Source: Muscardinus avellanarius
Taxonomy: Eukaryota > Chordata > Mammalia > Rodentia > Gliridae
Length of the DNA stretch: 64,000 nucleotides
Assembly (NCBI GenBank): GCA_963383645.1
Contig: OY726565.1
Coordinates: forward strand, 41,505,944-41,569,943
Direction: 5' to 3'
The translations under genes and the position numbers were made by a program. How positions within the stretch are numbered: position 1 is the first letter of the stretch; every line of letters begins with the position of its first letter. Of the stretch, positions 3,766 to 62,505 are shown piece after piece. Under the pieces are notes generated by a model. That model was not told the origin of the DNA. It was given only the letters and a program-made list of their open reading frames with translations, and made no database searches.

Positions 3766-4504
3766 TGCTAGACCCATCCTTTCTACACAACATTCTATCT
3801 CCTACTGCTCAACCTGAAGTAGGTTGATCCTCAAGAGGAGATACGTACCAACCTTTTCCTTGTAGATATGCCTTCAAGGCAGTGGGAACAGGACTAAGTG
3901 TTCTAAGATGGCAGTACTTTCTCAGGTGGAAGCCCAGTGTGAAACCTCAGCCTTGCAGGCAACTTAAATGCTCATCCTCTTGAATCTGCCACAAAGGCAC
4001 ACTGCACCATGGAAGATTCAAAAGGAAAATGTGTAGACAGCACAGGAAGGAGCCCAGATTTTCTGTGAGGAATAGGGTACTTCATCATTAAGCTGGGTCA
4101 ACAAAAGTCATTTCATTTTTTAAAAATATGCTAATACAGCCTCAAATACCAGAAAGCTTAAATGACAGGCACTTCATAGAGTTCATTTTTATTATTCTCA
4201 GCTGAAAAGTAAATAACACTCCCGCAGGTGTCCTTCATATTAAAAGGCTTTATTTGCCTGAAATAGAGACTCTTTATTGACTAAAACCTTATCTATATTT
4301 TACAAGACAAATGATTTTTCCCCATCAGCTTTCAAAGAGAAGTTGTTGCCAGTCCACACTAGACAAAGAAATCATCCTTATTAAAAGAAGTGGTACCACA
4401 GGAACTAAACTGAACGAACTCTCAGTGGCCATGGTGGTAACACTGTGAGCAGTAAAATAAGTAACCTGGTGCTGGATTATAACCCACCAAATAAAATAAA
4501 TATT
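3766..4504. other. Unassigned intronic DNA
   Basis: No gene or repeat that I can name. Open frames here are short and overlap the neighbouring SINE on the other strand. Confidence 0.4.
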
Positions 4505-19022: not shown

Positions 19023-19252
19023 ATCCCAAATAAGATTCACTAACTGGGCTGGCAACCAGACAAGACATTTGAGTCTTAACCATCAAGTTGGTCTTACTCT
19101 AAGAATGTGAGTTTGCTGTATTGGCTTAATTTTTAAAGTCTTCCACACACTTTTACCTCCACTGAGCACTGCATTTGCAAAAGCAAGGAGAATATCAGAA
19201 TCAGTAAAAATAAGCATTGACTCCAATAAAAATTCAAGTAAAAGCAACTTTT

Positions 19253-19449
19253 TTGGCATCAGGGATGGAACCCAGGAGCATCTACCTCCGAGCTACACCC
19301 CAGCCCTATTTTTCATTCTTTATTCTTTGAAACAGGGTCTCACTGAGTTGCAAAGGGCCTCGCAAAGTAGCTGAGGCTGTCCGCAGTGATCTCCCTGTCT
19401 CAGTCTTCCAAATGCTGGGATTACAAGCATGTGCCCCCAATCCCAGTTT
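19253..19449 (-). mobile_element. B1-dID SINE, type B, split by the VNTR retroposon
   Basis: ggcatcagggatggaaccca through gcccccaatcccag. Its own target-site duplication aaaagcaactttt is at 19240-19252 and, beyond the later insertion, at 21850-21862, which proves the nesting. Confidence 0.88.
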
Positions 19450-19804
19450 TTTTTTAATTTATTTTTATTGGTGCATTGTAATCATATATCACATTGGAAT
19501 ACAAGACTTGAGAGGATATACAAGCACACATCATCCAATTAGCCCTCATCCAGTCCCCATCCCATTCCCTCCCCCTCCCTCTATCCCATGCTTGTTTGGT
19601 GATTAACTTTGATACATAGGTTTAAGTACCTCCTGCTTTTTAAAGAGGCTCCATCCTCCCCTATTCCATACCCTCTGATTGGTCACCTTAATTGCTTCAC
19701 TATAGGGCCCTTTCTATAGCTCGACCACTTCCTGTTGCCCCTTTCCTCCTAGTTATTGCTGATTAGGGGAAGCATCTGGTTTTAATTTTCTGCCCTATTT
19801 CTCT

Positions 19805-20930
19805 GTGCATGCCGCGTTACAAATACCGATCCCACTCTTGATGGACCCAGTTGTAGCCTGGCTACCCGGTGGACTTATCCAGACCTCGCTGGCTCAAGCA
19901 GCGGCCTTGCCTCATGGGAGGCCCCGATTCTGGTCTCGCTGGCCCCAACACTGGCCTAACTCCTCAGCTAGCTCCAATTTTGGCCTCGGAGGCCCCAGCA
20001 CCGGCCTTGTCTCACGGCAGGCTCCGATGCTAGCAGATGGCCCCGGAATTGGCCTAACCCCTCGGCAGGCTCCGATCCAGGCCTAGGAGGCCTCAGTAGC
20101 GGCCTTGCTTCACAGAAGGCTCCGATGCTGGATGCTGGCCCCGGCACTGGCCTAACACCTCGGCAGGCTCTAATCCCGGCCTCTGAGACCCCAGCCCGGC
20201 CTTGCCTCGCAGCAGACTCTGATCCCAGCCTCGCTAGCCCCAGCACCGGCCCAACCCCTCGGCAGGCTCCAATCCCGGCCTCGGAGGCCTCAATAGCGGC
20301 CTTGCCTCATGGAAGGCTCTGATGCCGGCCGCTGGTCCTGGCACCAGCCTAACCCCTTGGCAGACTCCAATGCCGGCCTCAGAGGCCCCGGCACCGGCTT
20401 TGCCTCGCAGCAGGCTCCAATGTAGGCCACTGGTCCCAGCACTGGCCTAACCCCTCGGCAGGCTCCGATCCCAGCCTCAGAGGCTCCAGCATCGGCCTTG
20501 TCTCATGGCAGGCTTGGATGCCGGCCGCTGGCCCTACCACCGGCCTAACCCCTCAGCAGGCTTTGATCCCGGCCTTGGAGGCCCCAGTACCAGCCTTGCC
20601 TCACGGCAGACTCCAATCCCAGCCACGCTGGCCCTGGCACCAGCCTGACCCCTCGGCAGGCTCCGATCCCAGCCTCGGAGGCCCCAGCACCGGCCTTGCC
20701 TCATGGCAGTCTCCGATCCCGGCCTCAGAGGCCCCAGTACCAGCCTTGCCTCATGGCAGGCTCCAATACCGGCCTTGTTGGCCCCGGCACCAGCCTAACC
20801 CCTCAGCAGGCTCTGATCCCGGCCTCGGAGGCTCCAGCACTGGCCTTGCCTCACGACAGGCTCCAATCCCAGCTTTGCTGTGTCCGTCGCCGGCCTCACC
20901 CCTCAGCAGGCTCTGATCCGAGCACCCTCT
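19805..20930 (-). repeat. GC-rich VNTR of ~49 bp units, inside the composite retroposon
   Basis: The anchor ggcaggctccgat, or a close variant, recurs at 20021, 20069, 20119, 20167, 20216, 20266, 20316 and 20364 and onward, giving steps of 48-50. Two unit types alternate: one with ggaggccccagcaccggcct and one with gcctaacccctcggcagg. About 22 units; the left-hand ones are more degenerate. Confidence 0.92.
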
Positions 20931-20941
20931 TCGCCCAACCA

Positions 20942-21232
20942 TTTGTCCCACGTTCTCGAGGGTGCATGGTGGTAGCATTCTGCCTCTGGTGTCATTACTT
21001 CAAAGGTTCCAGGTGTAATGCATCAGATCTCTGCCTCCCCTGAGTACTGGCCACTGTCATTGCCACTGCCTCCACCATTTCAAATCTTTCCCAAACTCTT
21101 TTTTCACTCTGAATGTTGTCCAGTGTTCCTAAGCATGCGCAATGGTAGCATTCAACCTTTGGTGTAATTTCTCCAAAAAAAAATAATAATAAGGTTGGTA
21201 GGCTCCAATTTCTGCTTCTCCTGAATACAAGT
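20942..21232 (-). repeat. Two diverged ~110 bp direct repeats in the composite body
   Basis: 20942-21050 and 21116-21232 share ordered words such as tggtagcattc, ttggtgtaatt / tggtgtcatt and cctgaatac / cctgagtac at a spacing of about 175 bases. Confidence 0.6.
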
Positions 21233-21480
21233 CTCCACCGCCAACGTGGAGACCTCGTTCAGCACCACCTTTCTCCTTGGTCTCCACTAAAGTCTCTCTT
21301 CTTACAGGTGATGTCCAAGATTCTTAACAATGTAGAGAAAAAGTAGTCCTCCTTAGCGGGGAATTTTTCCAATAATTCCAGTTCATTTGGATAAGTTTTG
21401 TCTGCATCTCCAGTATCCTGGCATCTGCCACGGCCTCCTTGACCCCTCTCTGCTATTTTCCTTTTTTCTTTTTCTTTTCC

Positions 21481-21837
21481 TTTTATACAGGGTCCTTCCA
21501 GGGGAAAAGGGGGTCGCCTAGGGGTTCCCCACCAGCGCCTGCCCACCCGCCCAGGGTCAGGGCCAGAGGCCCGGACCACAGGGTCCTTCTGGGTGGGGAG
21601 AGGGTCGCCTAAGGGTGCCTTGCCAGTGCCTGCCCACCCGCCTAGGGTCGGGGCCAAAGGCCCGGACCACAGGGTCCTTCCGGGTGGAGAGGGGGTTGCC
21701 TAGGGGTGCCCCACCAGCGCCTGCCCACCCACCCAGGGTCGGGGCCAGGGGCCCGGACCACAGGGCCCTTTCGGGTGGGGAGGTGATCGCCTAAGGGTGC
21801 CCCACCAGCGCCTGTCCACCCACCCAGGGTCGGGGGG
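21481..21837 (-). promoter_or_regulatory. 91-bp tandem monomer promoter of the composite, with TATA box
   Basis: The word gggtc(g/a)ggg falls at 21554, 21645, 21736 and 21827, an exact 91-base period. The last monomer on the minus strand turns from ccctgtggtccggg into ccctgtataaaagg, creating a TATA box (21487-21481). This layout resembles the monomer promoters of mouse L1. Activity is inferred only. Confidence 0.7.
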
Positions 21838-22042
21838 CAATCCCAGTTTAAAAGCAACTTTTAATTAAAAGTATGAAGAAAATTATAACCACTGCATAGA
21901 ATTGAATCAATCTTTGTCAGTTTTCAAGAATCACCACATGCACTAGTGAAAAGCATTGTGCCTTACTACCAACTAGAACAAATAGAAATGATAGAAACCT
22001 GATTAATGAGATGAAAAAATGCTTGAGCACCACACAGTAGGA

Positions 22043-59879: not shown

Positions 59880-60240
59880 TTTTTAACTTTTTAAAAAATT
59901 TTATTAGTGCATTGTAGTCATACATCTTAATGAAGTACAACATGGTAGAGGCATACATGTACACATCAACCAATTAGCCCTTCCCCAATTCCCACCTCAT
60001 TCCCTCCCTCCTCCCTCCTCATGTTTGGCTTAGTGATTGATATGTTTGTTAATGTACATCATGTACATTAGGGAATTTCCCTCTTCCCCCCTCCCATCAC
60101 CCTCAGTTAGGTGGCCTTATTTGCTTATCTATAATATCTCCTTCTTCATCTAGTCAGTCACAAAAAATAAGAAATCGGATGCTCTCCCTAATATGCAGAA
60201 GCTAGGGAGAAAAAAAAAATGGGTCATAGGAGGAATTCTA
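59880..60240 (-). mobile_element. L1 3' end fragment
   Basis: Reversed: attttattagtgcattgtag, CT-rich 59990-60025, ggcttagtgattgatatgtt, ttcttcatctagtcagtcac, gggtcataggaggaattcta. Flanks share aacaatcc. Confidence 0.8.
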
Positions 60241-60244
60241 AACA

Positions 60245-60860
60245 ATCCTTTTTTTATCCCTTTATTCAGTTAAAGTGTCACATTGATCTATATGGTTTTG
60301 AACATTTTTTTTACTGCTACTACCTATTTCGTTTCTACTTCCCCCACACACACCCATCACAGACTCTGCTGTGTGACTTTAAGCCTGACTTAACCTCATC
60401 TCGACCTCTATTCTTCAGTTCATCCCACACACTGACCCAGGCTAAGGTCCTTCAAATGAGAGGCAGATCACATGATGTGTCTGTTCTAAATTCTTAGCAT
60501 GGAATTCAAGGAAGGCTGTCCCTCAACTGATCTCAAACCATCCTGTGGTGCCCACCTGTCCACGTGCCCCATGCACAGACACGCTGGCCAACTCCCCATA
60601 TCCCAGAGCCACTGTGCACTGCCTTGCCATGTGGCTCCCTCAGCCAGTGTAGCCAGCTCCGCTGCCACTTCTAAAGTGTTCCTGGATATCTCTCCTCCAC
60701 CTCACTTGGTTAATATGTTTTATTTTTCTAATACTCATTTAATCTTGAATATTAAATGTTTTTCTCTTCCCACAAGCTAAAATTTCTTTGAGAACTGATA
60801 ACATCTTTCTGCAAAACAAATTGCCTGGCTTAGTGTTTTGTATGCAGTAGGTGGTAATGA
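60245..60860. other. Mostly unassigned DNA, possible L2 3' end
   Basis: 60775-60860 (aatttctttgagaactgata, cctggcttagtgttttgtat, gcagtaggtgg) resembles an L2 terminus. No gene; a 93-codon frame at 60499-60780 has no recognisable domain. Confidence 0.4.
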
Positions 60861-60866
60861 AATGGT

Positions 60867-61713
60867 TGTGGTTTCTTGAGAAGAAACCCGGTGTTTCATC
60901 AAAGATGAAATGGAGTTTCTTGAGAAGAAACTCAGCGTTTCCTTACTGGGTTCTTGTCTACGATGAACGAAGAATGACACCTGCAGACTACAGGAAGGGG
61001 AGTAAATGGCTTATTGGAAGCAGCAGAGAATAGGGAAAAGTGGCCGAACACCCCAAAGGGGCTGTTGTAACTCTAGAGTCCAGCAGTTGCCTTCAGGACA
61101 ATACTTGAGAATATCCCAAGCTGAATGCCTTCAATTGCAAGCTGATTTCTTCCAGAGTCCACGTGATCTGCCAGAAAGGAATAGGGAAGTGACTGAACAC
61201 CCCAAAGGGGCTGTTGGGGCTCTGGTGTCCAGTAGCTGCCTTCAGGTCACTACCCGAGTGTAGCCTGAGCTAAGTGCTATCAGTTACAAACTACTTTCTC
61301 CCAGGGTCCACGCAATCTGTCAGAAAAGTGCAGGTCACCCTTAGGGGCCCTGGTCAGCCTTGATGTCCAACAGAGGCCTTCAGGTCACTACCCGAGTGTT
61401 GCCGAGCCACTTGCCCTCAGTTGTGCTCCACCTTCTCTCAAGGCTAACATGACCTGCGAGAGAGAGAAAAGCTCCCCAAAGGGGAGGGTGTCCCCAAGAA
61501 GGAAAAACCCATTTTGGTGGCCGGTCTGAGGTTTTGCCAATGTCTGCATGTCCTCTGTTGGTTGTGGTGAGTTTGGGATCCTGGGAATTCTGGGAAGCAG
61601 CTCTCAGAATTTGCATAGAGTATTTGCAAGTCCTTTGAAGAGTCTCCTTTCATTCAGTAGGAGTGTCAGACTTGCTCAGGTGATGGCTCCTGAGTTTGTT
61701 GATTAGTAAACAA
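60867..61713 (-). mobile_element. ERV LTR-like segment with internal tandem repeats
   Basis: On the minus strand the end resembles a retroviral R-U5: ccaataagcc, ctgcaggtgtcattcttcgt, gacaagaacccagtaaggaa, gctgagtttcttctcaag. The U3-like part has three to four imperfect ~140-base repeats anchored by gtccagcag / gtccagtag / gtccaacag at 61078, 61227 and 61365. Boundaries are approximate (tgtggtttc at 60867; tagtaaaca at 61713). No retroviral coding sequence is present. Confidence 0.5.
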
Positions 61714-61878: not shown

Positions 61879-62505
61879 TGAGAAGGTAACTGAAGGGTCC
61901 AAGAATTGCCCACCAACCCAAATATCGAAGGACTCACAAGAGATGTAAGAATGCAAGCGAGGTTTATTGTCCCGGCTAGCCAGGGGTCGAGACCAAGACA
62001 CTATGGCCGAGGTTCGACCCCTCCCCACTCCACGCTCTGAATTTTATAACCCTAGGAGGGAGTGGTTACACATGAGGGAGTGGTTACACAAGTCAGAGCC
62101 CGCCAACCTTAGAATACAACCAATCAGATACAAGGACAAACAAGTACAACCAATAATTTTAAAACATGCATCCACACATGTCAGAGCCTGCTCTGCCTTT
62201 CCCACCCACCTTGGCTGGGCCAGGCTTATCTCTGCACTGAAGAACAGATTATCTCTGCACTGGAGAGCAGATTAGCCTGGCCTTGTTTGCTGATCTAGCT
62301 CAGAGATATGGGGATGGGGTCCCATTTACAAAGACCTTGGCTGGCAAGCTGGAGATTAGAGGCTTTGACCTTGTGGGTCCCCTACCCTTGTCCTTGGATG
62401 GATCTTGATTTTATTTCCAATCCTACCCTACTTCTATCTTAACTATATTTTAATACCTTATTTCTAATCCTAATATGGGAGAAGACTTCTCTAGTTAACT
62501 TCTCA
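61879..62505 (-). mobile_element. Solo LTR, gammaretrovirus-like (ERV1 type)
   Basis: Ends form a 13-bp inverted repeat with one mismatch: tgagaaggtaact at 61879-61891 and agttaacttctca at 62493-62505, with TG...CA termini. On the minus strand: TATA box ttataaaat at about 62048-62041, AATAAA at 61968-61963, a U5 of about 65-80 bases, and an inverted CCAAT near 62124. Flanking tetramers are cata and tata, an imperfect 4-bp duplication. No primer-binding site or polypurine tract adjoins, so it is probably a solo LTR. Old, non-coding. Confidence 0.72.

Follow-up and report, generated by a model that had tools for sequence, protein, structure and literature searches.

The window, the whole stretch of 64,000 nucleotides that was analysed here, holds an element on its minus strand, and the question raised by this locus is whether the element belongs to a composite retroposon family built on the logic of the hominoid SVA and LAVA elements, as an earlier note had claimed, or is an L1 that has lost its open reading frames. 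The structure of the window copy, its relatives in the assembly, their 5' ends and the L1s of the same genome were compared.

The insertion at 19450-21837

The element was found to be a single minus-strand insertion within a SINE, with exactly the coordinates and the exact 12-bp duplication, CAATCCCAGTTT, on both flanks that the earlier note had given. Read on the element strand, the order is monomers (21837-21487), body (21480-20930), array (20925-19891) and tail (to 19450). The features are as follows.

19253-19449, minus: host SINE holding the insertion, recognised from the empty-site join and from many SINE relatives in the window
19438-19449: target-site duplication, poly(A)-end copy, CAATCCCAGTTT, exact match to 21838-21849
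19450-21837, minus: composite retroposon copy, 5' end at 21837 and poly(A) end at about 19450
19450-19705, minus: L1-derived 3' end (256 bp) with AATAAA signals and a short poly(A)
19706-19890, minus: upstream tail part (utrA), present in 18/20 and 6/6 other copies
19891-20925, minus: central VNTR of about 20 subunits, in which 50-bp (A) and 48/50-bp (B) units mostly take turns
20930-21480, minus: body, 551 bp, with no recognised protein and a diverged internal repeat
20943-21004, minus: internal body repeat, second copy, 71% to 21116-21177
21116-21177, minus: internal body repeat, first copy, 71% to 20943-21004
21480-21487, minus: TATAAAAG motif, private to the window copy and no family feature
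21487-21837, minus: promoter-like type II monomers, GC-rich and 91 bp each, 3.8 in tandem (array found at 21487-21835)
21838-21849: target-site duplication, 5'-end copy, exact match to 19438-19449

When the flanks of the window copy are joined without the element, a complete SINE results, the own 13-bp target-site duplication of which, AAAAGCAACTTTT, lies at 19240-19252 and 21850-21862. The recovery on excision of the whole SINE together with its 13-bp duplication is a second proof that 19450-21837 arrived in one piece. On the element strand the insertion site reads CTTTT/AAACTGG, which agrees with the usual preference of the L1 endonuclease, and the SINEs of the window are presumably B1-like. 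Elsewhere in the window, a two-copy 149-bp repeat was noted at 61028-61326, an LTR-like stretch was seen by eye at about 61900-62500, and an L1 3' end at 59899-60250 has an upstream part that appears by eye to be inverted, as in twin priming. Rfam at gathering scores gave no match within the window, and scans of IMG/VR with one tail word and one monomer word gave no matches with either.

On the body consensus, the 62-bp internal repeat scores 28, where none of 300 shuffles exceeds 14.6, and a third repeat is weak, with 1/300 and 11/300 shuffles equally high. The body as a coding exon was considered and rejected: seven open frames of the window copy, drawn from 47 listed frames of at least 40 amino acids, were sent to Pfam, and none gave a match at E ≤ 1.

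The central array was described earlier as a VNTR of about 49 bp. A GC-rich array is indeed present there, located at 19897-20870 with periods of 50 and 98, but its repeat is more aptly seen as a dimer of 98 bp, made up of one 50-bp and one 48/50-bp subunit. Across 18 copies the VNTR measures 495-2,159 bp (median 1,178) with units mostly of 48-50 bp. Judged by eye, a special type of unit stands first in 19 of 21 copies (all but L018 and L020), and the last-but-one position likewise has a special type in 20 of 21 (all but L020). An origin of the VNTR from the monomers was rejected (score 15.2, 52/300 shuffles equally high), as was an origin from their complement (17.9, 21/300); for a possible origin from a body unit the best score is 12.0, with 7/300 shuffles equally high.

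The tail, read earlier as an L1 3' UTR with poly(A), is L1-derived over 19450-19705, which shows 71-78% identity, across 83-253 bp, to seven further stretches of the window. Upstream of this, the part of utrA from 19706 to about 19790 resembles L1 3' UTR, and also 60160-60250, by eye, and the remainder of utrA is a linker.

Dispersal, module order and target-site duplications

The assembly that was searched comprises 2.497 Gb in 104 contigs. A 35-base word from the body, with up to three mismatches, occurs at 4,158 places (2,116 forward and 2,042 reverse), whereas the reversed-pattern control occurs at none. The figure of 4,158 is a lower bound on the number of family copies, since copies truncated downstream of the word escape the count. 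The body as query gave 4,528 first-look candidates genome-wide, on many contigs; the 40 that were scored (the window's included) cover at least 546 of the 551 bases at 94-100% identity. Besides the window copy, 45 copies were read: 39 are the best matches to it and six were chosen otherwise. The 20 top copies, chosen for likeness to the window copy, were read across 10 kb each, and because of this selection the first six places from the word search were added, all with the exact 35-base word and all on contig C1.

The order of monomers, body and VNTR is found in 20/20 top copies, and the VNTR follows the body in all 26 other copies that were read on both sides. Both tail parts follow the VNTR without a gap in 24 of these 26 (18/20 top copies and 6/6 word-search copies, the latter all with body, VNTR and both tail parts and again no gap before the tail). 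The exceptions in the top 20 are L020, which retains the last tail part alone, and L013, which has none and in which the VNTR runs into other sequence; among the 18 full-order copies, the tail of L023 stops early and that of L024 is split by about 220 bp. In all 18 the matches of VNTR and tail overlap, leaving no room for an open reading frame between them, and neither ORF1 nor ORF2 stands between VNTR and tail in any of the 24 copies that have the VNTR and both tail parts. Without poly(A), the element measures 1,690-3,294 bp, with a median of 2,464 (18 copies).

Target-site duplications were sought in 19 of the 20 top copies, L013 being left out as it has no tail. In 14/19 copies a duplication of 12-17 bases exceeds all 40 same-locus controls; 11 of the 14 are exact and three have one mismatch. 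The duplication of L026 is ambiguous, with 5/40 controls equally high, and against the 40 controls no duplication was found in L009, L014, L025 and L027. A-rich 3' ends are present in the family copies. Those checks from the earlier note that were run came out in favour of a family: the body word is dispersed over 4,158 places, 14/19 copies carry duplications of their own, and the same module order held in the 20 top and six word-search copies, apart from the tails of L013 and L020. The absence of L1 open reading frames was also borne out, in the 24 copies read between VNTR and tail and in the seven Pfam-tested frames of the window copy.

Two of the copies deserve mention in their own right. 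In L020 the VNTR is nearly absent (about 0.1 kb) and half the tail is missing, and the copy has an exact 14-base duplication of its own, from which it may have moved in its short form. In L023 an A-run starts within the tail, with an exact 15-base duplication behind it; early polyadenylation may be the cause.

Divergence among copies was measured on 21 bodies against their majority, in a sample that leans towards window-like copies, and amounts to 1.3-3.8%, or 1.0-2.9% without CpG. Slower mammalian rates would place a divergence of about 2% up to about nine million years back. At the rodent rate of 1.1% per million years given in PMC9022269, the same 2% would correspond to about two million years.

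Promoter-like monomers and 5' ends

The tandem GC-rich monomers reported at the 5' end of the window copy were found as described (3.8 × 91 bp), and 91-bp monomers also occur in the other copies: in 20/20 top copies, in 19/19 further copies and in 4/6 word-search copies. The TATA box that the earlier note had placed next to them is a different matter, as it is present in the window copy but does not extend to the family. At its position TGTATAAAAGG is read in 0/20 other copies and TGTAAAAAAGG in 11/20; TATAAAA is absent from 19/20, the exception being L025, where a separate change has produced it. A TATA-driven start as a family feature is thereby ruled out, the motif being a private change of the window copy.

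The 5' ends themselves point to a different start. Fifteen ends are anchored by a duplication, namely those of the 14 copies above and of the window copy. Five of the 15 begin at one monomer base, GGTCCGGGCC (simulated p 0.00005), and eight lie within 7 bp (p 0.0002); with wider free windows the clustering of this set is weaker, with p 0.0091 for 12 bp and p 0.029 for 19 bp. In six of the 15 (the window's and five others), one to five leading bases do not align to the monomer. In the 19 further copies, with starts taken from the monomer alignment alone, six starts fall inside the same 7-bp monomer stretch (binomial p 0.0023), and these copies considered by themselves give, with free windows, p 0.097 for 7 bp and p 0.013 for 19 bp. 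The simplest reading of these ends is that transcription starts within the monomers, so that copies would keep monomers and each would bring its own promoter along. The 5' termini of mouse L1 likewise favour certain monomer positions, according to PMC9022269.

A second type of promoter region was found in L054 and L056, two of the six word-search copies, which are without 91-bp monomers. Their shared 5' region consists of GC-rich monomers of about 138 bp (type I) and a tether of about 90 bp, followed by the same body:

L054:504-876 and L056:3667-4005: type I promoter region, about 138-bp monomers and tether

Including the window's, 44 of 46 copies begin in 91-bp monomers and two in 138-bp monomers. 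With CpG left out, the bodies of L054 and L056 diverge by 5.0 and 5.3% from the young majority; at 22 columns of the alignment, including ten gap columns, the two agree with each other against that majority. L053, a copy with 91-bp monomers, is likewise 4.3% away, so that the time order of the promoter types is not clear-cut. A comparison of type I with type II monomers scores 30.5, where the highest of 500 shuffles reaches 27.2, which makes a distant kinship possible; any similarity in sequence between the two is distant at best. It would thus seem that the family has exchanged its promoter module, and a direction of change from 138 to 91 bp would be a guess from two copies. L1 lineages also acquire new 5' UTR modules, as stated in PMC9022269.

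Origin of the element and comparison with known retroposons

Three L1s of the genome were compared with each of the five modules and with the type I and type II monomers. L029+L012, with open frames of 331 and 1,279 codons, and L031:1731-8781, of about 7 kb with open frames of 329 and 1,279 codons, are young L1s of one lineage; L009+L030 is an older L1 in which the ORF1 frame spans 322 codons and ORF2 is broken, and its 5' UTR (L030:4369-4797) consists of GC-rich tandem repeats of about 22 bp, unlike the design of the young L1. A first look for the ORF1 domain gave 38,950 candidates; of the 150 that were scored, most had, by eye, one score in common and a frame of about 329 codons. The young L1 with both frames open looks like one of very many near-identical copies. 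A single match longer than 22 bp was obtained in the comparison, between 172 bp of the tail and the 3' UTR of the older L1 (73%), which indicates that the end of the tail derives from an older L1 type. Monomer, body and VNTR gave nothing longer than 22 bp against the three L1s, the 5' UTRs of which are unrelated, and utrA gave no blastn match longer than 15 bp. As the three L1s are without monomers, body and VNTR, the window element is no ORF-deleted copy of any of them. The 3' UTR of the young, ORF-intact L1 is also unrelated to the tail of the composite, and the statement in the earlier note that this tail is recognised by L1 is thereby left without support. The driver of the family may then be another L1; were it the young L1, it would have to act via the poly(A) and not via a matching tail.

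The explanation that we consider very probable is a non-autonomous composite retroposon family mobilised by L1. Each copy would bring its own tandem-monomer Pol II promoter, of 138 bp in the two more diverged copies and of 91 bp in the other 44 read, and transcription would start within a monomer, with a preference for GGTCCGGGCC or the bases just behind it, from which the variation of monomer number among copies would follow. The RNA would pass through body and VNTR and end at the polyadenylation signal of the L1-derived tail; L1 ORF2p would act in trans on the poly(A), and the cDNA would be inserted by target-primed reverse transcription at A-rich sites, producing the duplications of 12-17 bp. 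The signature of the copies fits such a mobilisation in trans by L1. The sequences themselves establish the dispersal, the order of the modules, the duplications, the poly(A), the lack of open reading frames and the clustering of the 5' ends; transcription by Pol II, its start site, the action of L1 in trans and the choice of driving L1 lineage are the parts of the mechanism that we infer.

Several other explanations have to be weighed against this one. The element could be an ORF-deleted derivative of an unsampled L1 lineage, in which monomers and body are the former 5' UTR and the VNTR has grown at the junction. Mouse L1 5' UTRs consist of monomers followed by a tether (PMC9022269), the end of the tail is L1-derived, and the L1 5' ends that were read number just three; against this stand the unrelated 5' UTRs of the two young L1s of one lineage and of the older L1, and the fact that no room for an open reading frame is left between VNTR and tail in any of the 24 copies where the VNTR and both tail parts are present. 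We regard this derivation as unlikely. A local tandem duplication or satellite that mimics a retroposon, for which the two tandem arrays inside the element might speak, is refuted to all practical purposes by the occurrence on many contigs and in both orientations (2,116/2,042), by the copies' own duplications and by the clean empty site.

That Dfam, Repbase or some automatically built repeat library already lists the family under another name, and perhaps in pieces, is a possibility to which we give only slightly less than an even chance. Roughly 4,000 copies, typically 1.7-3.3 kb long, should hardly escape programs that look for repeats. However, among the literature matches listed, in a scope mostly outside subscription journals, no title or abstract start describes this family or any such family outside hominoids, and VNTR composites are called specific to hominoid primates in PMC4432496 and PMC7353768.

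The composite retroposon family proposed here shares with SVA, LAVA, PVA and FVA, as described in PMC4432496, a non-coding structure, poly(A), target-site duplications and a central GC-rich VNTR with units of 30-50 bp, conserved ends and variable number, and LAVA also has an L1-derived 3' end. According to PMC4432496, SVA and LAVA have conserved arrays of repeat units at both ends of the VNTR; with its conserved end units, the present family thus resembles the VNTR composites in more than module order. What the earlier note chiefly claimed, namely a family of composite retroposons that follows the logic of SVA/LAVA, is supported by dispersal, order, duplications and the lack of open reading frames. 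All four hominoid families, however, are reported in the same paper to share a 5' CT hexamer/Alu-like region, in place of which 91- or 138-bp monomers are found here, and no Alu or SINE-R part was noticed, a difference judged from anatomy and not from sequence alignment. The family therefore works like the hominoid VNTR composites but is no member of them, and its parts appear, from the anatomy alone, to be independent of those of SVA. From mouse L1, as presented in PMC9022269, it is familiar that tandem monomers and a tether form the 5' end, that 5' termini are preferred and that new 5' modules are acquired; unlike mouse L1 with a monomeric 5' UTR, the family is without ORF1 and ORF2 and has a VNTR between the 5' region and the tail. 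The L1s of its own genome differ from it in having ORF1 and ORF2 (the latter broken in the older one). The element is no L1, and an unsampled L1 as its source is possible.

The wider reading, that of a rodent VNTR composite family which is independent of SVA and LAVA, is made of other parts and has retained body, VNTR and tail through a change of its monomer promoter, is to our minds evenly balanced. If it is true, an own promoter, a GC-rich VNTR and an L1-compatible tail would constitute a repeatable design; the different parts used here do suggest two separate origins of it. The role of the VNTR in SVA is unsettled, as its full deletion lowered mobilisation and its partial deletion raised it (PMC4432496). 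A family of other parts with a GC-rich array and conserved end units would provide an independent case for VNTR function, in which features in common could be separated from accidents of descent. Finally, a change of promoter in an element without open reading frames would allow one to test whether the 5' replacement of the L1 type concerns transcription and silencing alone.
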